The notes under the pieces are model-generated. The model saw only the letters and a list, made by a program, of their open reading frames with translations, was not told where the DNA came from and did no database searches. DNA of 31,150 nt. It comes from a virus. Location of the stretch: positions 1 through 31,150 of the IMG/VR virus record IMGVR_UViG_3300041809_003455, one strand, 5' to 3'. Shown here piece after piece: positions 23 to 31,150 of the stretch. The position numbers and the translations under genes were made by a program. How positions within the stretch are numbered: the stretch's first letter is position 1; each line of letters starts with the position of its first letter.

Positions 23-153
23 CCTATTTGCAGGTGCTTTTGGTGCCGGAGGCGGGGGTCGAACCCGCACGCCGCGTGAACGGCACCGGATTTTGAGTCC
101 GGCGCGTCTGCCAGTTCCGCCACTCCGGCTTTGCCCTATTTGCTGCGCTTTTG
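23..153. repeat. Imperfect direct repeat bracketing the tRNA gene
   Basis: CCTATTTGC-AGGT-GCTTTTG (23-42) lies just past the tRNA 3' end. CCTATTTGC-TGC-GCTTTTG (135-153) lies just past its 5' end, overlapping the integrase stop codon. The two copies match in all 16 bases outside a short spacer that differs by one base. They could be remnants of attachment sites or of an earlier insertion next to the tRNA. Function is inferred from position only. Confidence 0.45.
41..129 (-). tRNA. tRNA-Leu (anticodon CAA)
   Basis: Read on the minus strand, the sequence folds as a class II tRNA. The acceptor strands GCCGGAG (129-123) and CTCCGGC (51-45) pair, followed by discriminator A and an encoded CCA (43-41). 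The anticodon stem CCGGA/TCCGG closes a seven-base loop CTCAAAA, giving anticodon CAA at 95-93, which reads UUG. The T arm contains GGTTCGACCCC, and there is a long variable arm as expected for leucine. The 5' end faces the integrase gene, whose stop codon is only 6 bp away, so the tRNA has no room for its own promoter on that side. tRNA genes are common phage attachment sites, and this is the likely left junction. Confidence 0.95.
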
Positions 154-1497
154 TGTCCGACTGCTACTTAGGGCGACGACCTCAGTGCTAACCGAGTGCG
201 AATCTCGCTCGGCTTTCGCCATCGCCGCCTTGACGGCCTCGTCGTGAAGCGAGTGTACCTGCTCCAAGAGCGGCTCGGTGGCGTGCAGGTAGATTCTCGC
301 CGTGGTCATCGGATCGGCGTGGCCAGCAAGGCGCTGGGCTACCTTGAGCATCGACTCCCGCTGCTCGCCACCCCGATCGAAGATGCCCGTCGTGTAGCTG
401 TGGCGCAGGTCGTGGAAGGTGACCGCTGGCAGATTCTTGCGCCGGCAGAAGTCCGACCAGGCACTTGAGAGGTTGCGCGGCTTCATCGGTCGACCGTCCT
501 GCGTCGCCACCACGTAGCCTTGTGGGTTCCAGCGGGCTAAGGCCAAGCGCATCTCATCCTGAGCCGCCTTGTGCTCGCGGAGGATCTCGACGCCGCGAGT
601 AGGCAGAGGGAGCAGCCGCAGACCGGCGCGGCTCTTCGGCGGTTGGGTGTGGAGCACGCCGCCCTTCGTTTGCTCGAGAGCTTCGCACACATAGATACGA
701 CCGGACTCAAGGTCGACGTTCTCCCAGCGAAGTCCGCACACCTCCCCACGCCTCAGTCCTGCCCATGCGGCGAGCACGAGCGGAACGCGCACCTGCGTTC
801 CCTCTGAGAGGACCATCGCGCGAGCGACGTCGTCAGTGCTCCAGACCGAACGTTCAGCGCGATCCTGGGCAGGTGGATGCTTTACACGAAGCGCAGGGTT
901 GCGCTCGAGAAGCTCCTCGCGCACTGCCCAAGAGTACGCCGCCCGAATGGTGGCATGGACATGGTGCGCGGTCGTCAGGGAGAGGCCGCGATCAGCGAGG
1001 TCGGCATACAGCGCAGAGAGGTCGACCGGTCGCACATCTGCTGCCACGTTTGCACCGAGCGCAGGTGCAGCCAAACGCAGCTTCTCCTCATAGAACTCGA
1101 TTGTCGCCGGTCGCACGTCGAAGCGCAGGGCGGCGAGCCAGCGCCGACACATCTCGTTGACAGTGAGACGTGCTGGATCCGTGCAGTCGTGAGACTCGAG
1201 TTCGGCAATCCAGTCGTCCAACGCGCGCTCGGCCGCGCGCTTGCCCTTGGCTTCAACGATCTTCGTCGTGCGCGGGTAGGTCCGCCTGCCGCTGCGCACC
1301 ACGGGTGGGAGGTTAGCGACGAGGCGCCAGCGGTCACGTCCTGCCGGCTCCAAGTGGCCGGTCGGTCGGTCTTTCATGGCAGGCATCATATGCGCACGAT
1401 TCGGAGCAAGCCACCCTGGTGGCATCGGGGTCAGTTGCTGGTACGGCCGAAGCCCGACCTTGCCCGCCTCCCAGTGTGGCGACTGCGCGCTAGTCAT
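136..1497 (-). CDS. int: Tyrosine recombinase / phage integrase
   Basis: This is a site-specific recombinase of the lambda integrase family, which inserts and excises the element. In the 453-aa reading an N-terminal arm-binding region (about 41-100) is followed by a SAM-like core-binding domain (about 110-205) and a catalytic domain (about 215-415). The catalytic set is visible: R249 in AGLRRGE, K288 in the hairpin, H362 and R365 in FHDLRHSY, H393 in LAGHADP, and nucleophile Y403 in RIYLHAT. The first 40 residues look unlike coding sequence, and the real start may be a Met cluster ending at position 1377 (MKDRPTG); no clear ribosome binding site decides it. The 3' end abuts tRNA-Leu, the usual int-att arrangement. 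The upstream region to 1703 carries repeated dyads that may regulate it. Confidence 0.95.
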   Translation of the reverse strand: MTSAQSPHWEAGKVGLRPYQQLTPMPPGWLAPNRAHMMPAMKDRPTGHLEPAGRDRWRLVANLPPVVRSGRRTYPRTTKIVEAKGKRAAERALDDWIAELESHDCTDPARLTVNEMCRRWLAALRFDVRPATIEFYEEKLRLAAPALGANVAADVRPVDLSALYADLADRGLSLTTAHHVHATIRAAYSWAVREELLERNPALRVKHPPAQDRAERSVWSTDDVARAMVLSEGTQVRVPLVLAAWAGLRRGEVCGLRWENVDLESGRIYVCEALEQTKGGVLHTQPPKSRAGLRLLPLPTRGVEILREHKAAQDEMRLALARWNPQGYVVATQDGRPMKPRNLSSAWSDFCRRKNLPAVTFHDLRHSYTTGIFDRGGEQRESMLKVAQRLAGHADPMTTARIYLHATEPLLEQVHSLHDEAVKAAMAKAERDSHSVSTEVVALSSSRTQKRSK

Positions 1498-4408: not shown

Positions 4409-5527
4409 CTAGTGCAGCGGCCTCGAGACGGTGATGGCCAAGAGCAGACCCATCGACGGCCGCGCCGACTGCGTGGTCCACGTGGCTCCACCGTTGCTCG
4501 TCGCTAACACAACGACCGCATGTCCGCGCATGCCAATCGCCCACACGTGCCGCGAATCGGTGCAGCTCACGGCCGCGAGAACGACACGCGGGCCAGCGCC
4601 CGCACGAAGACTCCACTGAGCCTTCCAGGTCTTGCCCCCGTCCGCAGTTGCGACGATCACGGCGCGACTGGCGTCCATCGCACCGCCGACCGCCCAGGCG
4701 TGCGTGGCGTCGCTGCAAGTGACGCCTTGCAGGCAGGCGACCTCAGGCAGATGAAGCATCGTCCAGCTGGCGCCGCCGTCTGTGGTGCGCAAGATCTCGG
4801 CGCCGGCTCCGGCCACGGTCTCGTCGCCCACCGCCCAGCCGCAGCGGGCGTCGGCGAAAGCCACACCGCGCAAGTTGGCATTGGGCTCGCTGTACTGCAC
4901 TTTCCAGTGGACACCGCCGTCGCTGCTGGCGATGATCGCTCCCGGGATTGTCGTCCCTGACGCGGGGTCATGCGGTGAGCCCACCGCCCAGACATGGCGT
5001 GCGTCGCTGCAGGCGATGGCCATGAGGCTGCCCAGCTGCTTGACCAACGGTGAGGAGATCCAGGTGCGACCCCCGTTGGAAGTCCTAAGGACAAAGACGC
5101 CGCCGGGCGCCGTGCCCGCGGCGAACACGTGGCGGGCGTCGCTGCAGGCGACGCCGGCGAGTTCGCGGTTGTTCGTGTTGCGCCGTTGGAGAGCCCAGTG
5201 GGCGCCGCCGTCGCTCGTGGCGAGGATCTCGCCGCCGTCAGTCGCGAACCAGACGTGGCGCGCGTCGCTCGCGGCAATGCCCCACGAGAGGCCGTCGAGA
5301 GTGCGCTGGACCCGCCACGTGGCGCCGCCGTCGGCGCTCGTGAAGACGCGCGTGCCCGAAGCCCAAAGGCGATAGCCGGCAAGCGGCTGCGGAGACGCCC
5401 TAAGTGTCGGGGTGGGTGAGGTTTGAGAGGTGGTCGCAGACTGGCCGCAACCTGTGACGAGCCCAAGGGTGACGAGCAACAGCGATGCGGCCAGCGGCAA
5501 CGCCGCATGAGAACGCCGGAACCGCAC
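4409..5527 (-). CDS. YCF48/BNR-type beta-propeller lipoprotein
   Basis: Exported protein with repeated propeller blades; substrate unknown. The start is taken as the GTG at 5527 because GAAGG lies just upstream; an ATG at 5575 would add 16 residues unlike a signal peptide. The N-terminus RFRRSHAALPLAASLLLVTLG ends in the lipobox VTGC, implying a lipid anchor. About six blades follow, each with a core such as ATSDGGAHW, RTSNGGRTW, ASSDGGVHW, RTTDGGASW, ATADGGKTW or ATSNGGATW, and linkers of SDARHVWAVG type. Proteins of this kind are abundant in soil actinobacteria and are often annotated as sialidase-like or photosystem-assembly-like without a proven role. The gene runs against the phage operon and is bracketed by 17-bp direct repeats, so it appears to be inserted cargo. 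A hairpin at 4305-4324 may terminate it. Confidence 0.85.
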   Translation of the reverse strand: MRFRRSHAALPLAASLLLVTLGLVTGCGQSATTSQTSPTPTLRASPQPLAGYRLWASGTRVFTSADGGATWRVQRTLDGLSWGIAASDARHVWFATDGGEILATSDGGAHWALQRRNTNNRELAGVACSDARHVFAAGTAPGGVFVLRTSNGGRTWISSPLVKQLGSLMAIACSDARHVWAVGSPHDPASGTTIPGAIIASSDGGVHWKVQYSEPNANLRGVAFADARCGWAVGDETVAGAGAEILRTTDGGASWTMLHLPEVACLQGVTCSDATHAWAVGGAMDASRAVIVATADGGKTWKAQWSLRAGAGPRVVLAAVSCTDSRHVWAIGMRGHAVVVLATSNGGATWTTQSARPSMGLLLAITVSRPLH

Positions 5528-5637
5528 ACTACCTTCTTTCTTCTGGTAAGCGGTCTGTGTGGCCGCTCCGACCACTCCCGCCCCACCGAAGGCTTCATCG
5601 GCACGCCGTCACGCGGCAATTAGTCAGCGCGACAGAC

Positions 5638-6014: not shown

Positions 6015-7282
6015 TGTCGCTGACCCTTGAGACCGTGCCGGTCGGCTCGCTGGCGCTCGACCCCGACAACGCACGCAAGCACGGGCGCCGCAACCTCGAG
6101 GCGATCGCCGGCTCCCTGCGGCAGTTCGGCCAGCGCCGGCCACTGGTTTGTGTGCGGGTCGGTGAACAGACCCAGGTCATCGCCGGCAACGGCACCCTCG
6201 AGGCCGCGCGCTCGCTGGGCTGGACCGAGATCGTCATCACCGTCGTGCCCGACGACTGGACCGCCGAGCAGGCCAAGGCCTACGCGCTTGCCGACAACCG
6301 CACCGCGGAGCTTGCGACCTGGGACGAGGGCGTGCTCGCCGAGCAGCTAGGCGACCTCGACGCGCTCGGCTTCGATCTCAATTCGATCGGCTTCGACGGG
6401 CTGCCGGCGCTCGACATGCCGGGCGGGCTCGACGACCCAGGCGAGGTCCCGCTCGACCCTGTCTCCTCGCCGGGCGACCTCTGGATTTGTGGGCCGCACC
6501 GCGTGCTCTGCGGATCCAGCACCGACGTCGTGGCGGTGGACGACCTGTTCGCTGGCGACCACTGCCAGTGCGTCGTCACCGACCCGCCGTATGGCGTCGC
6601 CTACTCATCCGGGCATCACCGGGCGATCGTCGGAGACGACTCGACCGATGCCGAGCTCGAGACGCTTCTGCGCAGCTCCCTCGGCATCGCCTGCCAGCAC
6701 GCCACCGACGGCGCCGGCGCCTACGTCTTTCACTCCGACTCCAAGCGCGTCGTCTTTGAGGACGCCATGTGCCGCGCCGGGTTCTTCGTCCACCAGACGC
6801 TGGTGTGGGTCAAGCAGCGCCTCGTGCTCGGGCGGCTCGACTACCAGTCGCAGCACGAGCCCATCCTCTATGGCTGGAAGGCCGGCTCGCGCCACTCGTG
6901 GTACGGGGGCCGGCGCCGCACGGCACTCGTGGCAGACGAGGCGCCGGACCTTGAGCGGCTGACCGGCGACGAGGCGCTCGCGCTGGTGCGCGAGCTCTAC
7001 TCCGAGACCACGGTCATCCGCCACGACCGACCGGCCAAGTCGACAGAGCATCCGACCATGAAGCCGGTCGGTCTGCTGGCGCGGCTCATCGTCAACTCGA
7101 CCAAGAAGGGCGAGCTCGTTTACGACCCGTTCCTGGGATCGGGCTCGACGCTCATCGCCGCCGAGAGCCAGGGCCGGCGCTGCGTCGGCTGCGAGCTCGA
7201 CCCCTGCTACGTCGACGTCATCGTGCGGCGCTGGGAGAAGGCGACCGGCGGCAAGGCGGTGCTCGACCGTGGCGAAGGGTAG
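6014..7282 (+). CDS. ParB-like nuclease domain fused to DNA methyltransferase
   Basis: 422 aa. Residues about 4-110 match the ParB/Srx fold (VGSLALDPDNARKHG, VIAGNGTLEAARSLG, ALADNRTAEL). From about 155 follows an N6-adenine/N4-cytosine methyltransferase. Motif IV DPPY is at 190-193 and the AdoMet motif DPFLGSGST at 371-379; motif IV before motif I makes it beta class. Such fusions are common next to phage terminase genes and are thought to modify phage DNA against host restriction, perhaps marking packaging DNA. All key motifs are intact. The ATG overlaps the stop of the previous gene and the end overlaps the small terminase gene by 14 bp. The recognition sequence cannot be read from the sequence. 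Confidence 0.92.
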   Translation: MSLTLETVPVGSLALDPDNARKHGRRNLEAIAGSLRQFGQRRPLVCVRVGEQTQVIAGNGTLEAARSLGWTEIVITVVPDDWTAEQAKAYALADNRTAELATWDEGVLAEQLGDLDALGFDLNSIGFDGLPALDMPGGLDDPGEVPLDPVSSPGDLWICGPHRVLCGSSTDVVAVDDLFAGDHCQCVVTDPPYGVAYSSGHHRAIVGDDSTDAELETLLRSSLGIACQHATDGAGAYVFHSDSKRVVFEDAMCRAGFFVHQTLVWVKQRLVLGRLDYQSQHEPILYGWKAGSRHSWYGGRRRTALVADEAPDLERLTGDEALALVRELYSETTVIRHDRPAKSTEHPTMKPVGLLARLIVNSTKKGELVYDPFLGSGSTLIAAESQGRRCVGCELDPCYVDVIVRRWEKATGGKAVLDRGEG

Positions 7283-7772
7283 ACCGCCGGATCCCGGGCG
7301 TGAGCGCCGTGGCACTGGCAATCGCGCGACGGTCGGCCGCGCAAAGGCGTCTACCGCTCGGGCGCTGCCGGCGCCGACAGTCGTGGCGCAGGCCGAGCCG
7401 CCGGCCGACCTGCCGGGGGCGGTCGTTCCGCTGTGGACCGCCTGCATCAACGAGATGGCAGCCAACCGCCACCTGCGCGCGCCGGACCTCATCCTGCTCA
7501 AGGCGTACTGCGAGGCGATCTCGCTCCACGAGGAGTCCTCGGCGCAGATTCACCGACTCGGCGTGCTGGTCTCTGGACCTCAAGGGCCCATGGTGAACCC
7601 GCTCATCCGGGTGCAGAAGGACGCCGCGCAGACGATGCGGCAGCTCGCGGACGTGCTCGGCTTGAACCCGACGGCGCGCATCCGCGCGGGCCTGCAGGAG
7701 GTCGCCGGCGCGAGCCTCGTGCTCGGCATCCGGGATCGGCTGGTCGGCGAGATCGTGAAGGGCTCGAGGTGA
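7269..7772 (+). CDS. terS: Phage terminase small subunit (P27-like)
   Basis: 167 aa with a GTG start. After a basic N-terminus (MAKGRPPDPGRERR), the region of residues about 40-150 matches the P27 family: PPADLPGAVVPLWTACINEM, then a helical stretch (LILLKAYCEAISLHEESSAQ), GPMVNPLIRVQKDAAQTMRQ and LADVLGLNPTARIR. The small subunit recognises phage DNA and recruits the large subunit for packaging. It overlaps the methyltransferase by 14 bp and the HNH gene by 4 bp (GTGA). Its normal partner, the large terminase subunit, is not found downstream, where a reverse-strand lipoprotein gene sits instead. Confidence 0.88.
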   Translation: MAKGRPPDPGRERRGTGNRATVGRAKASTARALPAPTVVAQAEPPADLPGAVVPLWTACINEMAANRHLRAPDLILLKAYCEAISLHEESSAQIHRLGVLVSGPQGPMVNPLIRVQKDAAQTMRQLADVLGLNPTARIRAGLQEVAGASLVLGIRDRLVGEIVKGSR

Positions 7773-8053
7773 GCCGGGCGCGGCTCTACATCTCCATCGT
7801 GGCCGACGTCCTCGAGGCGCGCGACTTCCGCTGCGAGTCCTGCGGCGCGCCAGACGTAGAGCACGTCCACCACATCATCCCGGCGTCGGAGACCGGCATC
7901 GCTGCCGAGCTCGTGCTGGAGCCGGCGAACATGATGGTGCTCTGTAACGACTGCCACGTGCTGTTCCATCCCGGCTCCCGCAACCGCAACATGTGGTGGC
8001 ACATGCAGCTCGCCGCCGACGCGCGCGGGCGATCGCTCGGAGGCTTCCGGTGA
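7769..8053 (+). CDS. HNH endonuclease
   Basis: 94 aa with a GTG start overlapping the terminase stop. CESCG and CNDCH supply two zinc-binding pairs around VEHVHHIIPASE, the His-His core of the HNH motif, followed by NMMVLCNDCHVLFH. HNH proteins beside terminase genes in HK97-type phages assist the terminase in cleaving concatemers at cos sites (known for the family). The position between small terminase and portal fits that role. The stop overlaps the next GTG (8050). Confidence 0.9.
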   Translation: MSRARLYISIVADVLEARDFRCESCGAPDVEHVHHIIPASETGIAAELVLEPANMMVLCNDCHVLFHPGSRNRNMWWHMQLAADARGRSLGGFR

Positions 8054-8421
8054 CCGAGCCCGAGCGCCCGAAGGCCGGCGAGCCGCCGGACCTCTCCCGT
8101 CCGACCGAGGTGCTGCGCTACCTGCTTCAAATCGAGGCCGAGCGCCTGCAGGTCGCGCTTTCGGTCGAGCGCAAGCGCGAGCTCGTCTTCCCGGAGACCA
8201 CGGTCATCGTGCGCGACATCGAGCGCCTCACCGCCGAGCTCGAGCGCCGCGACGCAGAGGCCGGCGGCGCCGACGCGCAAAAGGGGACGCCAGAAAAAAC
8301 CGCGCAAACGATTTCCGGAGGCTGGGCGCCGGCCGACCTTGCGAGATGTGTCGTCGGTCAAGTACTGCGATCGAATACGGAGCGATGGTGTGCCCGCCGA
8401 GAAGCAGCTCCTTCTGGGTGA
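8050..8421 (+). CDS. Small phage protein, 3' end lost at a cargo junction
   Basis: 123 aa as read, starting at a GTG that overlaps the HNH stop. Residues 1 to about 80 look phage-coded and helical (LRYLLQIEAERLQVALSVE, RDIERLTAELERRDAE). After TAQTISGG (about residue 90) the sequence runs antisense to the reverse-strand lipoprotein gene and loses coding character. The original gene probably ended or continued differently, so this is likely a truncated frame. Function unknown; small helical proteins often precede the large terminase gene. A copy of GCGCAAACGATT (8302-8313) lies close to the apparent junction. Confidence 0.5.
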   Translation: MTEPERPKAGEPPDLSRPTEVLRYLLQIEAERLQVALSVERKRELVFPETTVIVRDIERLTAELERRDAEAGGADAQKGTPEKTAQTISGGWAPADLARCVVGQVLRSNTERWCARREAAPSG

Positions 8422-8983
8422 AGTGAAACCGCGGGTTCTGCTCCCATGCCGTATGCCAGTGTGCGCCGCCATCGGACGTGCACTCGATGATGCCCACAAA
8501 GCGAGCGCCGTGGGCAATTACCCCGGCGGCAATCCCGTGGAGACTGTCTGTGAAGGCCAACTCGGTTAGGGCCAGGCTGGAACCCAACCGCACGACCGAC
8601 CAGTGCTTGCCCCCATCTACAGTGCGTATCACCTCGTCGCCGCCGAGCAGCCAGCCGTGTAACTTGTCGCTGAAGGTGACAGCGAAGAGGTCCTCCGAGG
8701 TACCGCAGTCAACCCCGCGCCAATGAACGCCGCCGTCTGAGGTGGCAAGCAGGGTGCCCGCCTCGCCTATCGCCCACCCGTCGCTGACGCTGGTAAAGCA
8801 CACCCCCGTCAGGTCGGCGCCGGTGCCCGACTGCTGGGCAACCCAACCCATGCTTCGCGCGAGGCCCGTGGTCTTCGCTGGCGCACAGCCAGCCACGAGC
8901 AGCGAGAGTGCGGCCAAGGCGATCACGCACAGACAACCCGGGAGGTTCGCCTGCCACTTCGCTCTCGCTCGATGCGACGCCAT
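8228..8983 (-). CDS. YCF48-type propeller lipoprotein, C-terminally truncated cargo
   Basis: 251 aa as read. The ATG at 8983 is chosen because GGAGGG lies 8-9 bases upstream; a longer frame from 9079 lacks this. The N-terminus has a basic region, a hydrophobic stretch (CLCVIALAALSLLVAG) and the lipobox VAGC, so it should be a lipoprotein. Blades contain LLATSDGGVHW, IRTVDGGKHW and CTSDGGAHW, with linkers such as VSDGWAIGEAG. After about residue 208 (SIAVLD) the frame becomes Arg-rich and antisense to the upstream phage gene, so the natural C-terminus seems to be missing. It is read against the late operon and lies exactly where the large terminase subunit is expected. It is related in type to the gene at 4409-5527 but is not a near copy. 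Confidence 0.7.
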   Translation of the reverse strand: MASHRARAKWQANLPGCLCVIALAALSLLVAGCAPAKTTGLARSMGWVAQQSGTGADLTGVCFTSVSDGWAIGEAGTLLATSDGGVHWRGVDCGTSEDLFAVTFSDKLHGWLLGGDEVIRTVDGGKHWSVVRLGSSLALTELAFTDSLHGIAAGVIAHGARFVGIIECTSDGGAHWHTAWEQNPRFHFTQKELLLGGHTIAPYSIAVLDRRHISQGRPAPSLRKSFARFFLASPFARRRRRPLRRGARARR

Positions 8984-9060
8984 TCGCGGTCCCTCCAGCT
9001 CGGACGAGCCGAGTGCGGCTGATACTACAGGGTTGAGTCCCCCACCGACCTCAAGCTGAT

Positions 9061-9086
9061 GGCGTGACGGCACGCTCATCCTAGGG
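9061..9086 (+). promoter_or_regulatory. 26-nt motif, copy 3, before the portal gene
   Basis: GGCGTGACGG-CACG-CTCATCCTAGGG, aligned without gaps to the copy at 5638. It is 28 bp before the portal start and immediately after the reverse-strand cargo gene. It could restart transcription of the late operon after the insertion. One frame reads RDGTLILGSVIGSR-stop, which could instead be the tail end of a lost gene. Confidence 0.45.
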
Positions 9087-9114
9087 TCAGTTATCGGCTC
9101 GAGGTGAGGTGCCC

Positions 9115-10686
9115 GTGAACTTCAACCCGCTGCGCCTGTTCGCTGGCCGCGCTCCCCAGAAGCGCGCGCTGGACGAGTCCAGCGAGCTCTACCGCGCGCT
9201 CGCTGTCTACGCGCAGACCGCGTCCGGCTTCTCCGTCAACGACGAGACGGCGCTCACCTCTGTCGCGGTGCTCGGCTGCCTGCAGGTCCGCGCCGGCAGC
9301 ATGGGCGCGCTGCCGCTCAAGGTCCGCCAGCGCGTGGGCCGCGACCGCCTCGAGCGCGACGACCATCCCGTCTATCGGCTGCTATCGGTGGCGCCGAACC
9401 CCATCCTCACCGCGCCGCAGTTCTGGCGCTGGGAGCAGCTCCAGGAGGACCTCACCGGCAACGCCTTCGCTCGGGTCATCTGGGCGAAGGGCGACCCCAT
9501 CGAGGTCTGGCCGATGACCGGGCCGCTGCCGACCATGCGCACCACGCCGACCGGCCTGGCCTACGCCTACGGCGGCGACGTCATGGTGCCGGCCGGCGTC
9601 TATCCGGCGAGTGAGATCCTGCATTTCAAGGGGCAGATCCTGCGCAACCCCTACTGGGGCCGCTCGATCGTCAACTTAGCCCGCGACACCATCGGCCTCG
9701 ACATCGCCTCGGAGCAGTTCTTCGCGCGCTTCCTGGCAAACGGCACGCACTTCCCGGGTTACCTCTCGACCGACCAGGACTTAACCGACGAGGACTACGA
9801 GGCCCTGAAGGAGCAGTTCAAGGGCTCAAGCGGCGTGCTCACCGCCGGCGAGCTGCGCATCTTCGACCGCGGCCTGAAGCTCCTGCAGAACGCCATGTCC
9901 TTGAAGGACGCGCAGTTGGTCGAGGAGCAGCGGTGGCTCCTCGAGCAGTGCTGCCGGCTCTTCAGAGTGCCGCTGCCGCTCCTGCAGGACTGGACGCACG
10001 GCACCTACTCAAACGCCGAGCAGGCCGGCATCTGGTTTGCCCAGCACACGATCACGCCGCTTGCGGTCGACAAGGAGGCCGTGATCGGCCAGCGCATGTT
10101 CCTGGAAAGCGAGGTCAAGGCCGGCTACTTCGCCAAGTTCAACGTCGACGCGCTGCTGCGCGGCGACTTCCAGGCGCGCTCGCAGGGCTACTCCATCCTC
10201 ATCCTCTGCGGCGTGCTCGCGCCCAACGAGGCGCGCGCCTTCGAGGACTGGAACCCCTACCAGGGCGGCGACGAGTACCGGCTGCCGCTCAACACCGCCG
10301 CGGCTGGCGACCCGCTCGCCGCGCCGGCGCCGGTGCCGGCCGCGGACAAGGTCAAGGCGCAGGAGCTGCCGGCGGGGCCGGCCGACGACGAGGGCGACCG
10401 CAACCTGCAGGTCGACCAGGGCGCCCGCTTTGCGGTCGCCGCCATGATCCGCAACGCCGGCGATCTCATCGAGCGCCGCGCCGCCGAGGACGAGGCGCGC
10501 GGTCGGCCGGTAACCGACACCGAAGCGTTCGCCTACCGCGTGCTCGCGCCGGTCTGCGAGGCGTCCGCGCACCTCGGCCTGGTCATCTCGCCGGCCATGC
10601 TCGTGGACCAGTTCGTCGGCAGGCGTGACGGCCGACTCATCATGGCGCCAGGTTCGCCGGCGCAGAGGAAGGAGGGCGCTTCATGA
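9115..10686 (+). CDS. Portal protein (HK97 type)
   Basis: 523 aa. The dodecameric portal forms the channel at one capsid vertex through which DNA enters and to which the tail attaches. Family signs include the early SVAVLGCLQVRAGSMGALPL region, DDHPVYRLLSVAPNP, LTGNAFARVIW, ILHFKG, GRSIVNLARDTIGLDIASEQ and NAMSLKDAQLVEEQRWLLEQ, then FRVPLPLLQDWTHGTYSNAEQ. The C-terminal 110 residues are an Ala/Pro-rich linker and a charged helical segment, longer than the core needs. The start is the GTG at 9115, 6 bases after GAGGTGAG; a GTG at 9109 lies too close to it. It overlaps the protease gene by 4 bp. Confidence 0.93.
   Translation: MNFNPLRLFAGRAPQKRALDESSELYRALAVYAQTASGFSVNDETALTSVAVLGCLQVRAGSMGALPLKVRQRVGRDRLERDDHPVYRLLSVAPNPILTAPQFWRWEQLQEDLTGNAFARVIWAKGDPIEVWPMTGPLPTMRTTPTGLAYAYGGDVMVPAGVYPASEILHFKGQILRNPYWGRSIVNLARDTIGLDIASEQFFARFLANGTHFPGYLSTDQDLTDEDYEALKEQFKGSSGVLTAGELRIFDRGLKLLQNAMSLKDAQLVEEQRWLLEQCCRLFRVPLPLLQDWTHGTYSNAEQAGIWFAQHTITPLAVDKEAVIGQRMFLESEVKAGYFAKFNVDALLRGDFQARSQGYSILILCGVLAPNEARAFEDWNPYQGGDEYRLPLNTAAAGDPLAAPAPVPAADKVKAQELPAGPADDEGDRNLQVDQGARFAVAAMIRNAGDLIERRAAEDEARGRPVTDTEAFAYRVLAPVCEASAHLGLVISPAMLVDQFVGRRDGRLIMAPGSPAQRKEGAS
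10622..10647 (+). promoter_or_regulatory. 26-nt motif, copy 4, inside the end of the portal gene
   Basis: GGCGTGACGG-CCGA-CTCATCATGGCG. It is in the coding frame of the portal C-terminus (RRDGRLIMAP) and 35 bp before the protease start. It may be an internal promoter for the capsid genes, or a coincidental coding match. Confidence 0.3.
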
Positions 10687-14029: not shown

Positions 14030-14469
14030 GCGGCTACATTCCGGCGGCGCCGGCCGTCCAGGACGCGCTCGTCGCGGCGATCGCCGCCGCGGTCGAGGAC
14101 GGCACCGAGGTCTCGCTGGGCTACCCGGCCGGCGGGCTCGCCGCCGAGCACATCTGGGTGGTGGGCGACTGCGACGTGCAGATCTCGCTCGAGGTCTCCG
14201 GCTACGAGCAGCGCCAGGAGGACGGCGCGCTCGAGGTCCGCGTCTCGGTCCTGCTCTCCGAGGTCGACTTCGCGCCGGCGCGCGACCGCGCCTTCGCGCT
14301 CTACCGTCTGGTCGAGTCGGTGCTCGCCGCCGACCGCACGCTGGGCGGCATCGTCGACCGCTGTTCGGTCTCCGCCTATAAGGGCCAGGAGGCCATCCCC
14401 GACGAGCACCAGCGCCAGTACGGGCTGACCGTGACCGTCTCCTGGGCGGGCACCGCGGTGCAGGGTTAG
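14026..14469 (+). CDS. Neck / tail-terminator-like protein
   Basis: 147 aa, GTG start overlapping the connector stop. The sequence (AVQDALVAAIAAAVEDGTEV, EHIWVVGDCDVQISLE, ARDRAFALYRLVESVLAADR, QYGLTVTVSWAGTA) fits the alpha/beta shape of tail-terminator or head-closure proteins, which cap the tail tube. The assignment rests mainly on its place between connector and tail tube. It ends 33 bp before the convergent stop of a reverse-strand cargo gene, so the operon is interrupted here. Confidence 0.6.
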   Translation: MSGYIPAAPAVQDALVAAIAAAVEDGTEVSLGYPAGGLAAEHIWVVGDCDVQISLEVSGYEQRQEDGALEVRVSVLLSEVDFAPARDRAFALYRLVESVLAADRTLGGIVDRCSVSAYKGQEAIPDEHQRQYGLTVTVSWAGTAVQG

Positions 14470-14501
14470 CGGGTGTCAGCCGGCGGGGCGCTCTCCCTGC
14501 G

Positions 14502-15011
14502 CTACAGCGGCGTTGGAGGGGTCGGCGCCGTGGGCGCCGATGGGACGATCGGCGTCTCATCGGAGTGCGGTCGGTCGACGCTCGGCTCCGTTGCCGGCGC
14601 CTGCGTCGCGCGGTCAGCTGGCTGCAGCTCGGCCGGCGCCTGCCAAACCGGTAGAGGCGCGTAGTCCTCGCGTGGCTTCCTTACGTAGACCCAGCCCGCT
14701 CCCAGGCACTTCCAGCATCCCGGTCCCGCGAACATGCGGCCCCGGCTCTGGCCGACGCCGTGGCAGACGTCGCAACGCACGCGTTGGTACTCCTCGGGAT
14801 TGACAGACCGGGAGGCGACCTCAAGCCGGTGCGCCACGACCCAGCGCCAAGCGACAAGCGCCGCGGCAACCCCGGCGATTGCCAACCCCATCGTCCAGTT
14901 GGCGGCGGCACCGATTCCGACGGCCATGGCACCGACGATGGCACCTCTGATGAGGACGCCCAGGCTGCGTGGCGGCCAACCGCTCGGCACCGGCAGCCAG
15001 TCTTCGGTCAT
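14502..15011 (-). CDS. Membrane protein with DnaJ-type zinc motif (cargo)
   Basis: 169 aa, read against the phage operon. Two hydrophobic segments lie at about residues 15-35 and 40-60 (MGLAIAGVAAALVAWRWVV). Residues about 80-106 contain CDVCHGVG and CWKCLGAGW, a pair of CxxCxGxG units as in the zinc domain of DnaJ. A Pro/Thr/Ala-rich tail follows. Such small proteins are seen in actinobacteria without known role. It is not a recognisable phage structural gene and appears inserted between the neck and tail-tube genes. Upstream on its own strand, TTGTTG, 18 bases and TAGGCT form a plausible promoter overlapping the motif shared with 3301-3319. No strong ribosome binding site is visible. Confidence 0.7.
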   Translation of the reverse strand: MTEDWLPVPSGWPPRSLGVLIRGAIVGAMAVGIGAAANWTMGLAIAGVAAALVAWRWVVAHRLEVASRSVNPEEYQRVRCDVCHGVGQSRGRMFAGPGCWKCLGAGWVYVRKPREDYAPLPVWQAPAELQPADRATQAPATEPSVDRPHSDETPIVPSAPTAPTPPTPL

Positions 15012-15066
15012 CGTCTGCGGTCTCGTGACGGCACTGTGCCGCAGAGCCTAGTTCTTAGGGACCACG

Positions 15067-15085
15067 TTCAACAACACCTCGATCG
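15067..15085. repeat. Third copy of the TTAACGACACCT-type motif
   Basis: TCAACAACACCTCGATCGG matches 3301-3319 at 17 of 19 positions. It lies upstream of the reverse-strand gene at 15011 and overlaps its candidate -35 region, which fits an operator role. Confidence 0.45.
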
Positions 15086-15123
15086 GGGAGAGCCGCTGCC
15101 CGCCAACGGGTGGTCGTCAGGAA

Positions 15124-15149
15124 GGCGTGACCGTCCTTTCACGATAGGG
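15124..15149 (+). promoter_or_regulatory. 26-nt motif, copy 5, before the tail genes
   Basis: GGCGTGACCG-TCCT-TTCACGATAGGG, gap-free against the copies at 5638 and 9061, ending five bases before the ATG at 15155. It follows a reverse-strand cargo gene, as copies 2 and 3 do, and may restart the tail operon. Confidence 0.45.
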
Positions 15150-24819: not shown

Positions 24820-25584
24820 GTGATCTACCGCACCGGCAAGCTGGCCAAAGAGACCGACGAGCGCACCCTGCAGCTTGGGCGCTACCTCGCCCCGGCGCTG
24901 CCGGCGCCGCCGCCCGCCTGCGACTACGCCGCCAAGATCCTCGCCTGGCGCATGCTCGGTAACGACAGAGTCGGCGACTGCGCCCTGGCCGGCCAGGCCC
25001 ACGCCGACATGCTCTGGGCCAAATGCGCCGAGGGCCGCGAGCTGCGCATCTCTGAGGCCATGGTGATCGGCGCCTACGCCAAGCTGACCGGCTACGTGCC
25101 GGGGGAGGCGAGCACCGACCGCGGCACGACGTTGCTCGCCGCACTACGGTTCTGGCGCAAGTGCGGCATCGACGGCCAGCGCCTGCGCGCCTTCGTCGAG
25201 GTCGACCCGCGCGACACGGACAACGTGAAGCGCACGATCGACTGGTTCGGCTGCGCCTATGTCGGGGTCGAGCTGCCCGATGCGGTGCTGCCCCACGCGC
25301 TGCCCCTGCCGCCCTGGACCTGTTCACCGGACGGCACTCAGGCGCGCCAGCCCAACCGCGCAAACGGTCACTGCGTGATCTACGCGGCCTACAACGCAAG
25401 CGGTCCGGTGGCCGTCACCTGGGGCACCACGGTGCAGGTCTCCTGGGCCTTCCATGCGGCCTACTGCGACGAGCTCTACGCCATGCTCGCACCGTCCTGG
25501 CTGCGGGCCGGCTGGCTTGCGCAGATCAATCCGCTCTTTGACGCCGAGACGCTGGCGGCCGACCTTGCGGCGATCGCCGGCTAG
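24820..25584 (+). CDS. Papain-like cysteine protease-type protein in the lysis block
   Basis: 254 aa, GTG start with GGAGGGA just upstream. NDRVGDCALAGQAH places a Cys (C54) at a helix start, and ANGHCVIYAAY supplies a His (H184) before a strand, followed by AVTWGTTVQVSW. This Cys...His...(W/N) order matches the papain/NlpC-like fold. It has no signal peptide or membrane segment. Set between the amidase and a holin-like gene, it might be a second cell-wall enzyme or act on host proteins. The family is inferred from motif order. A GCGCAAACGGT word lies at 25358-25368. Confidence 0.55.
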   Translation: MIYRTGKLAKETDERTLQLGRYLAPALPAPPPACDYAAKILAWRMLGNDRVGDCALAGQAHADMLWAKCAEGRELRISEAMVIGAYAKLTGYVPGEASTDRGTTLLAALRFWRKCGIDGQRLRAFVEVDPRDTDNVKRTIDWFGCAYVGVELPDAVLPHALPLPPWTCSPDGTQARQPNRANGHCVIYAAYNASGPVAVTWGTTVQVSWAFHAAYCDELYAMLAPSWLRAGWLAQINPLFDAETLAADLAAIAG

Positions 25585-27067: not shown

Positions 27068-27830
27068 CTGCCTGAGCGAGCTCGCCGGCGCCCTGGCTGC
27101 CTTCAACTCAGAGGTCTCAAACCCGGTCGCCGACCAGGTGGCCAATGTCCACTCCAAGCGCACCGGCGCCGACTTCAGCTACCCCTACGCCGACCTCGGC
27201 GGGATCTCCGAGGTCGTGCGGCCGGTGCTCGCCAAGCATGGACTCTCGGTCACCCAGCTCGTCTGCTACGAGCGTGAGCGCACCTGGGTCGGGGCCAAGA
27301 CCGTCCTTTTGCACAGCTCGGGTCAGTCGCTTGAGTTCCCGCCGGTCTGGGTGCCGGTGCCCGACGAAGGATCGGCCCAGGACATCGGTAAGGCGATCTC
27401 CTACAGCCGCCGCTACGGGTATCTGGCGGCGCTCGGCCTGGCTGCGCGCGAGGAGGGCGATGGTCCCGCCGCCGGCCGACGGCGCGAGGGCGCAAGCGAT
27501 TGCTCGCAGTCCCGGCGTGCGCGCCCAGGTTCGCGGCCGGCGGTGCCGGTCATCGGCGAGGCCGCGGCGCGCGAGCTCATCGCCGTGGCCAACCGCAAGG
27601 GCAAGACCGCCGAGGACCTCAAGGGGTTCCTTGAGGCGATCGGCTACCACGGCGCACTCGCCGGCGCCTCACCGCAGGTCGCCGGGCGGGTGGCCAAGCG
27701 CCTCGAGGGCCTGCCCGACCTCTACGACGAAAACGGCGAGGCGCTCGTGCCTGCGGTGCAGGGGCAGCTCGCCGCGCCGGCGCCCGACGGCGCAGACGAG
27801 CCGTTTCGCGACGAGGGGCCAGCGTCATGA
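27054..27830 (+). CDS. erf: ERF-family single-strand annealing recombinase
   Basis: 258 aa. The ATG at 27054 follows GGGAGG by 5 bases. ERF features: AFNSEVSNPVADQVANVHSK, YPYADLGGISEVVRPVLAKH, GLSVTQ, and the hallmark QDIGKAISYSRRYGYLAALG. These proteins anneal single strands and circularise or recombine phage DNA. A basic linker (about residues 145-165) leads to a C-terminal helical domain. The stop overlaps the ATG of a 25-aa gene. A GCGCAAGCGATT variant of the repeated word lies in the linker (27490-27501). Confidence 0.9.
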   Translation: MRTADCLSELAGALAAFNSEVSNPVADQVANVHSKRTGADFSYPYADLGGISEVVRPVLAKHGLSVTQLVCYERERTWVGAKTVLLHSSGQSLEFPPVWVPVPDEGSAQDIGKAISYSRRYGYLAALGLAAREEGDGPAAGRRREGASDCSQSRRARPGSRPAVPVIGEAAARELIAVANRKGKTAEDLKGFLEAIGYHGALAGASPQVAGRVAKRLEGLPDLYDENGEALVPAVQGQLAAPAPDGADEPFRDEGPAS

Positions 27831-27904: not shown

Positions 27905-28272
27905 GCCGCCCGGCCGAGCAGCTCGACCTGCTTGGCGCCTCACCGGCACCGGCGCCGGAGCCGGCTCATCCCCAGTGGGAGGAGCGCGACCCGCTTGAGG
28001 GTGCCAGGGCCTGGAAGCGCGACCATCCGCGCGCCTGGGCGCTGCTCGTGCGCTGGGCGCGGGCCGACGCCGCCCGCGGCCGGCGCTGCTCGATCGGCTT
28101 CTACGCCGAGCTGCTGCGCCGCCCGGAGTGGTGGACCGGCGAGGCTGTTGCCGACGACGAGTACCGTCTCAACAACACCTTTCGGGCCGGCTTGGTGCGC
28201 CTCATCGTGTGGGAGCACGCCGAGCTCGCCGACGCCTTCGAGACGCGGCGCAGCCGGGCGGGTGTGGCATGA
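27901..28272 (+). CDS. Conserved-type early phage protein, function unknown
   Basis: 123 aa. After a Pro/Ala-rich start (LDLLGASPAPAPEPAHPQWE), a compact domain has HPRAWALLVRWARADAARGR, IGFYAELLRRPEWWTGEAVA and DDEYRLNNTFRAGLVRLIVW. The pattern FYAELLRR...YRLNN...RAGLVR recalls small proteins of actinophage replication regions. I cannot name a family. It overlaps the next ATG by 4 bp, so it is coupled to the initiator-like gene. Confidence 0.7.
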   Translation: MSRPAEQLDLLGASPAPAPEPAHPQWEERDPLEGARAWKRDHPRAWALLVRWARADAARGRRCSIGFYAELLRRPEWWTGEAVADDEYRLNNTFRAGLVRLIVWEHAELADAFETRRSRAGVA

Positions 28273-29581: not shown

Positions 29582-29916
29582 GGGCGGCCTCGCGCCAGGA
29601 TCCGGTCGGCGCCTTCGACGAGGCGACCGGGTCGCTCGATCGCATCCCGCTCGAGACGACGATTGGCTGCTGCGACGCCTATTCGATTCCCGGCTACGAG
29701 CGGCTCCCGCAGAACGCTCTCTCGCCGCACGTCGCCCAGGACATGCGCCTCGCCCGTCGCAAGCGGCAGGCGATTGCAGATGCCATCCACCGTTCGGGCG
29801 CGCAAGCCTGTTCGCGCGACAACAGCGTTCACGGCCGGCTCTGCCGTGAGCAAGTGATCGCGCTAGACCCGCTCATTTGTGAGTCGGGCCGGCGGTCGGC
29901 AGTGAGAAGGGAGTGA
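29578..29916 (+). CDS. Unrecognised protein at the end of the early operon
   Basis: 112 aa. The ATG overlaps the previous stop by 4 bp. The sequence (DPVGAFDEATGSLDRIPLET, RLARRKRQAIADAIHRSG, CSRDNSVHGRLCREQVIALD) matches no family I know. The last 15 codons overlap the end of the convergent reverse-strand gene, so its natural C-terminus may have been replaced at a junction. Confidence 0.5.
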   Translation: MRAASRQDPVGAFDEATGSLDRIPLETTIGCCDAYSIPGYERLPQNALSPHVAQDMRLARRKRQAIADAIHRSGAQACSRDNSVHGRLCREQVIALDPLICESGRRSAVRRE

Positions 29917-30538
29917 GATGGCCGACTTCCGTCGCATTCGCCGGTCCGTCGGTGAGACCGAATGCGTGGATGATGTGCGAGCTTGCATCGACAATGTAGG
30001 CAATGGTCGTCCCTTGCAGGACCGGACCTCCCCCGGGAGTGAACGCGTTGTCGGCGCTGAAGTGACCCGTGAGGACAACCAAGTAGACCCGTAGTGCGGG
30101 GTCCTCTACCACATCACCCGGCTCGCCGACAGCAGGAGCGGCGTCGCGCATGATCGTCAAGCTGAAGGTCGCCGACGTTGGGGCACCGTCTCCGTTGCTC
30201 ACTGCCACCCTTTGAGCCTGAGTGGCAAGCCACGCCGGCGGGCGCGGGGCGCTGGTCGCACTGCCAGACGGCACGAACTGGAAGCTGTGGACGCTCGACT
30301 GGGCTGTGGCGGCATGCCGGGTGCGCAGAAATGGGACGCCAAGGTAGACGGAGGCCGTCATGGCTCCAACCACGCAGAGACTGACCGTGGCCGCGACGAG
30401 CCATCGCCGTCGCTGGAGACTTGCAAGCACATTTCTTGAAGTGCGCTGGCGTGGCGCCACTTTCGCCAGCCCTTCGAACTGGCCGCGCAGTTCGACCGCG
30501 AATCGCAGGTCACGCAGCGAGTCAGCGTGCTCGGCCAC
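29873..30538 (-). CDS. Single-pass membrane protein coupled to a sigma factor, candidate anti-sigma
   Basis: 221 aa, GTG start at 30538, five bases after GGAGGTGA that also forms the end of the sigma gene, so translation is coupled. Residues 1-45 are cytoplasmic (SLRDLRFAVELRGQFEGLAK), 48-72 one membrane span (LVAATVSLCVVGAMTASVYL), and the rest extracytoplasmic and beta-rich. The position makes it the likely anti-sigma regulator. It lacks the HxxxCxxC zinc motif of the commonest anti-sigma class, so this is inference. It converges on the phage early operon with a 44-bp overlap. Confidence 0.6.
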   Translation of the reverse strand: MAEHADSLRDLRFAVELRGQFEGLAKVAPRQRTSRNVLASLQRRRWLVAATVSLCVVGAMTASVYLGVPFLRTRHAATAQSSVHSFQFVPSGSATSAPRPPAWLATQAQRVAVSNGDGAPTSATFSLTIMRDAAPAVGEPGDVVEDPALRVYLVVLTGHFSADNAFTPGGGPVLQGTTIAYIVDASSHIIHAFGLTDGPANATEVGHLTPFSLPTAGPTHK

Positions 30539-30541
30539 CGC

Positions 30542-31150
30542 TCACCTCCACGGTTCAAGGTCTCGGGCGAGGTGCCGCAGACCCCGGCTCACCCGGGCGC
30601 GGGCGGTCTCCTCGCTGCAGCCCAGAGTCTCAGCTACCAGTCGGAAGCTGTGCCCCTCGATCACCCTGAGGCGCAGCGCCTCACGCTGCTCAGGGGCAAG
30701 CCCGCCGAAGGCGGCGGCTACTGCCCGTCCCACCTCGGCAAAGTCAATCAACGCCTCGATACGCTCGACATCGTCCGTGCTGAGCTCTATGGATGGCAAA
30801 CCAAGGCGTCGCCGTGCTACGTCCTCGACCCGGCGGCGTCTCAGAAACCGGCCCAACTTGCGCTGGGCGATCGTATACAGCCAGGCTTGTGCCGAACCTC
30901 GGCCGCGGTCTCGAAAGCGGCTTCGTGAGGCGTAGGCATCGGCGAGCGTCTCAGCGGTGAGGTCGGCGGAGAGCTGGCCGTCCAGTGTTCGGCGCGCGAA
31001 GAAAGCCAAGAGCCCCGGCAGCGTCCGGTCGTAGAAGGCGATGAAGCACTCCGGCCGCTCACTCGAGCCAACCAGAAGCTCCTCGTCACTCCGCTCTTGA
31101 ATACCCTCCACGGCGTCCGCTTTCTGTAGCGCCGGATCTTCCTGTCCCAT
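30542..31150 (-). CDS. ECF-type RNA polymerase sigma factor (may extend beyond the window)
   Basis: 202 aa to the ATG at the window edge; an upstream start cannot be excluded. Region 2 covers about 35-105: FIAFYDRTLPGLLAFFARRT, DLTAETLADAYASRSRFRDR, AQAWLYTIAQRKLGRFLRRR. Region 4 is near 145-195: LAPEQREALRLRVIEGHSFR, LVAETLGCSEETARARVSRG. There is no region 1 or 3, as in extracytoplasmic-function sigma factors. It should direct polymerase to a small set of promoters, perhaps under control of the downstream membrane protein. Whether it belongs to the prophage or the host is unclear. Confidence 0.88.
   Translation of the reverse strand: MGQEDPALQKADAVEGIQERSDEELLVGSSERPECFIAFYDRTLPGLLAFFARRTLDGQLSADLTAETLADAYASRSRFRDRGRGSAQAWLYTIAQRKLGRFLRRRRVEDVARRRLGLPSIELSTDDVERIEALIDFAEVGRAVAAAFGGLAPEQREALRLRVIEGHSFRLVAETLGCSEETARARVSRGLRHLARDLEPWR

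Follow-up and report, generated by a model that had tools for sequence, protein, structure and literature searches.

What has become of the packaging motor in a prophage in which a reverse-strand lipoprotein gene lies directly upstream of the portal gene? The question is raised by the window, i.e., the whole stretch of DNA analyzed here, which is the entire IMG/VR virus record IMGVR_UViG_3300041809_003455 (31,150 bp, classed as linear). From left to right, it holds tRNA-Leu, an integrase, a few cargo genes, ParB/methyltransferase, the small terminase (TerS), an HNH endonuclease, a small frame (orfX), the reverse-strand lipoprotein, and the portal, followed downstream by protease, capsid, tail, endolysin, and early DNA genes. 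Pfam and PHROG matches confirm the positions given to the genes from TerS to portal in the initial annotation (Table 1). TerS, portal, protease, and major capsid of the HK97-type core are present in order, and the large terminase (TerL) is missing from the set. The tail, lysis, and integrase modules of an HK97-type tailed prophage are represented by tape measure, tail proteins, endolysin, and the integrase beside tRNA-Leu. The initial annotation proposed that cargo had replaced the packaging motor. We find it probable instead that the window represents an HK97-type siphovirus prophage from an uncultured host, and that packaging was lost recently through a single deletion.

Table 1. Features of the window at its left end and around the site of the missing large terminase
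Feature	Position	Strand	Evidence or remark
tRNA-Leu	41-129		left end of window
Integrase	136-1497		adjoins tRNA-Leu
Small terminase (TerS), intact	7269-7772	+	Pfam PF05119 (Terminase_4), E=1.5e-15; phrog_83
HNH endonuclease, intact	7769-8053	+	Pfam PF01844, E=1.3e-8
Small frame orfX	8050-8421	+	N-terminal part matches phrog_16652
YCF48-type propeller lipoprotein, 3´-truncated	8228-8983	-	PSII_BNR PF14870, E=8.3e-12; lipobox LLVAGC
Novel junction, at which homology to near relatives stops on the left side	8340-8341		blastn
Right border of cargo slot and conserved portal leader	9055-9108	+	homology to relatives resumes
Portal, intact	9109-10686	+	PF04860, E=1.3e-71

Results

Absence of the large terminase

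The earlier statement that no frame in the window resembles a large terminase ATPase is borne out by several searches. The Pfam profile PF03354 found no TerL in the record and gave matches in three control genomes. A profile built from the TerL of four relatives had no match in the window, as opposed to a match in 11 of 11 related records, with one TerL per prophage. The search of all six frames that the initial annotation had called for was run with this profile and with all HMMER filters off, and nothing was found in the window at E≤10. PHROG scans of the other predicted proteins of the window named no large terminase. With Pfam, relatives-based profile, and PHROG scans all negative, a hidden or divergent TerL within the record was rejected. 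TerL is thus absent from this record. The record probably lacks the far right of the prophage, where a TerL might still lie, because the tRNA region is not repeated at the right of the window (no attachment-site repeat of at least 10 bp was found between the two). A search for TerL in 395 genomes from the class of one actinobacterial match, run without a positive control, returned none. The portal had no match in GTDB genomes, and a promoter and terminator scan of 7700-9400 gave nothing.

An accessory slot between TerL and portal in related phages

With the portal as query, 21 viral loci were retrieved. The nearest, L009, has a portal 95% identical at the protein level over the full length, and L001, L003, L004, L005, L007, and L008 follow at 80-83%. 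The TerS of the window is 81-95% identical to that of near relatives over the full length, and its HNH endonuclease 90-92%. Where the contig covers the region, the order in relatives is TerS, HNH (seen in L001, L003, L005, and L009), orfX, TerL of 488-501 codons, a slot, and portal. The slot is empty in L004 and L007, with about 45-50 bp between the TerL stop and the portal start. L001 has a Na+/H+ exchanger in it, L008 has small ORFs, and L009 has two ORFs on the reverse strand that lack a Pfam match. In L003 and L005, it is occupied by a reverse-strand YCF48 lipoprotein gene that is uncut, longer than that of the window, and placed beside an intact TerL, whose stop lies about 50-70 bp from the 3´ end of the lipoprotein gene. 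To find a lipoprotein gene on the reverse strand ahead of the portal is therefore normal for this phage family. In most of the more distant relatives (L010-L021), only about 50-80 bp separate TerL from portal. These comparisons document an uncultured phage family with a cargo slot between TerL and portal, and they speak against the proposal that cargo took the place of the motor, since the accessory genes of relatives occupy a slot of their own beside an intact TerL.

The closest relative (L009, record G007, IMGVR_UViG_3300035696_002382) shares the gene order of the window, including an integrase beside a tRNA at the left end, and is 90-93% identical in DNA over TerS-HNH-orfX and from portal to 14457. 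It differs in having an intact TerL of 499 codons, other ORFs in the slot, a different integrase, and tRNA-Thr instead of tRNA-Leu. The tandem prophages of IMGVR_UViG_3300041809_002848 (L001/L005), together with IMGVR_UViG_3300041809_003448 (L003), are ~76-84% identical to the window in the main matching blocks. L003 and L005 share with it the type, strand, and slot of the lipoprotein gene, but their TerL is intact, and their lipoprotein is only about 25-35% identical in matching parts.

A junction between two truncated genes

In blastn comparisons with relatives covering the site, homology to the window stops at 8339-8345. At the base level, as read against L009 5100-5140, the window tracks L009 through GGCTGGGCGCCGGCCGACCTT, which ends at 8340, and then diverges. 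The orfX of relatives ends in ...GWAPADLPSLGD or similar, directly before TerL. That of the window diverges after ...GWAPADL and lacks its last five codons; it is native up to about 8340, and its last ~26 codons come from reading on into the lipoprotein gene in antisense. The TerL of relatives would sit at 8340/8341. On the other side of the lipoprotein gene, homology restarts at 9055 (L003, L005), 9061 (L009, L007), 9082 (L004), or 9095 (L001). The comparison with related prophages suggested in the initial annotation thus places the junction at 8340/8341 and the return of homology at 9055-9061, and its impression that both genes meeting at the left junction look cut was correct, orfX and the lipoprotein gene both being interrupted mid-gene. 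Elsewhere in the window, the junction region has no exact match longer than 14 bp, which is at background level. A repeat-driven misjoin was rejected: a 14-mer at the junction recurs at 25556, but matches of this length also arise by chance at other places in that region.

The full reverse-strand lipoprotein ORF extends over 8228-9079, with the likely start at 8983. Its part from 8341 to 8983 is a cargo remnant, and 8228-8340 is a chimeric tail antisense into orfX. PSII_BNR repeats behind a lipoprotein signal place the protein in the YCF48 type. Its blade set is incomplete, with three repeats and one that is cut, compared with about seven (counted by eye) in the slot protein of L005. No relative was found in viral contigs with the lipoprotein as query, nor any match in a 26-mer scan of these contigs. 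In GTDB genomes, only distant YCF48 proteins were found, at most 39% identical and spread over many phyla, for which reason no host is called from this gene. A second YCF48-type propeller lipoprotein gene, uncut, is found at 4409-5575 (reverse strand) among the cargo genes of the left end, and its product shares ~35% identity with the truncated protein where the two match.

State of the remaining genes

Over the length that they share with L009, the compared phage genes have open frames; the ORF near 27827 ends at 28272. In a branch test of 12 genes, for which L003 served as outgroup, the window branch received 136 nonsynonymous and 189 synonymous changes and the L009 branch 100 and 165 (dN/dS 0.25 versus 0.21; Fisher p=0.35), and no relaxed selection on the window branch was detected in this comparison. 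The genes bear no trace of long decay, which fits a recent loss as well as an element that is still spreading, two cases that dN/dS does not separate. From the open genes and the selection pattern together, it follows that the deletion is recent, that the element is helper-dependent, or that the junction is an assembly error.

Discussion

A single deletion is the history that we favor. In the ancestor, TerS, HNH, and orfX would have been followed by TerL, a lipoprotein gene as reverse-strand cargo, and portal. One deletion of about 1.6-2.1 kb would then have begun in the final codons of orfX, taken TerL entirely, and extended into the lipoprotein gene at its 3´ part. The lost DNA would comprise the end of orfX, TerL (1.46-1.5 kb), a short spacer, and ~0.1-0.5 kb of the lipoprotein gene; these sizes are estimated from relatives, and the last is a range because the alignment leaves open which blade was cut. 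The exact right end of the deletion is not fixed, since no close relative of this lipoprotein was found, and we infer the undeleted parent, as the viral contigs searched yielded no relative that combines this lipoprotein with an intact TerL. A single deletion explains why two genes are cut, why TerL is absent, and why the slot has its normal border on the right, and we count in its favor that homology with both L003 and L005, which hold a longer lipoprotein gene in the slot, resumes at one and the same position, 9055. By reaching into the 3´ part of the lipoprotein gene, it would have damaged the cargo as well. A prophage of this kind would still encode integrase, capsid, tail, and lysis proteins and should not fill heads with DNA alone. 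Against the deletion, the join rests on one assembly, and the record is without a right attachment site. Provided that the assembly is right, the window has lost an essential virion gene that its intact kin possess, as a defective prophage has. It would offer one recent loss of a packaging motor, caught while the remaining genome is intact.

It is rather unlikely that the join was made by the assembler, from an upstream part of one phage and a lipoprotein-portal part taken from that phage or a relative of it, with omission of a TerL that the real genome contains. Such an error would agree with the presence of TerL in all other family members and with the restriction of the join to one contig (a scan of viral contigs for the junction 25-mer found no second contig with the same join), and the metagenomes concerned contain several related phages, a situation in which assemblers misjoin. 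It is opposed by the lack of any long exact repeat across the join and by the similar divergence from L009 on its two sides (90.4% and 93.3% identity). We regard as improbable an arrival of the lipoprotein gene from elsewhere that displaced TerL in the same event. The lipoprotein is without a close match in the viral contigs searched, and the second gene of its type in the window indicates that such genes do enter this phage. However, the slot of relatives takes such genes without loss of TerL, the right border coincides with the normal border of the slot, and a deletion would leave just such a 3´ truncation on the side of the lost TerL, whereas an incoming gene would need to arrive already so truncated.

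The earlier conclusion that the element is defective or dependent on a motor in trans stands. Help in trans is possible in principle: one contig of 61.5 kb carries two tandem prophages of the family, both with TerL, and one cell can therefore hold more than one. A related prophage in the same cell might then supply TerL to pair with the element's own TerS, which is intact and close to the TerS of near relatives that have TerL, and the deletion would thereby be maintained. No relaxed selection was seen on the window branch, as such maintenance would have it, but a recent deletion accounts for the same pattern. The full head, tail, and lysis set is kept, unlike in known satellites. We consider such maintenance very improbable, and equally so the idea of an early step from phage to satellite, in which a nearly complete phage minus its packaging motor is sustained by the TerL of a related prophage, steered by the element's own TerS. 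The finding would gain weight only with proof that the element spreads by means of a borrowed motor.

SaPIs are phage satellites that bring their own TerS and use the TerL of a helper. The window resembles them in having TerS and no TerL. It differs in that it supplies portal, protease, capsid, tail, and lysis genes itself and in having the TerS that is usual in its phage family. SaPI/PICI-like elements are missing most virion genes of their own; the structural set of the window is present and open, and the retention of its other virion genes puts it outside the definition of a satellite. A parallel to the deletion proposed here comes from incomplete (cryptic) prophages, from which terminase genes are preferentially lost and in which integrase and tail genes are kept, as in the window (PMC7744054). 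Unlike these, the window has nearly everything else intact, so the loss looks recent, and it fits the known pattern as a fresh case. Most likely, then, the window is a recently broken prophage of a known kind.

Putative attachment sites and further inserts

Several minor observations concern the ends of these prophages and additional cargo. The record of the closest relative (G007, loci L075/L076) has a perfect 127-bp direct repeat at 2303-2429 and 37898-38024, which spans from the tRNA-Thr anticodon loop past the tRNA 5´ end into the end of the integrase gene; the second copy stops exactly at the contig end. It looks like an assembly-graph overlap (k=127) with a circular, excised form, hinting that this close relative of the window is an active prophage with its attachment core inside the tRNA. 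In record G001, two related prophages are found in tandem (L071-L074, about 30100-31421), and at their join a tRNA-like 5´ half (CAT anticodon region) precedes the second integrase. The clade therefore seems to use the 5´ halves of different tRNA genes (Leu, Thr, and Met/Ile) as attachment sites. The window has an insert at 14457-15124 (reverse strand) that is absent from near relatives and marks a second cargo site between head-tail genes; it includes a reverse-strand ORF of 169 codons (14502-15011) without Pfam or PHROG match. At the right end (29873-31150, reverse strand), beyond the part in common with L009, are a sigma-70 family (ECF-like) factor and a possible membrane-anchored anti-sigma protein, which may be phage cargo or host flank.
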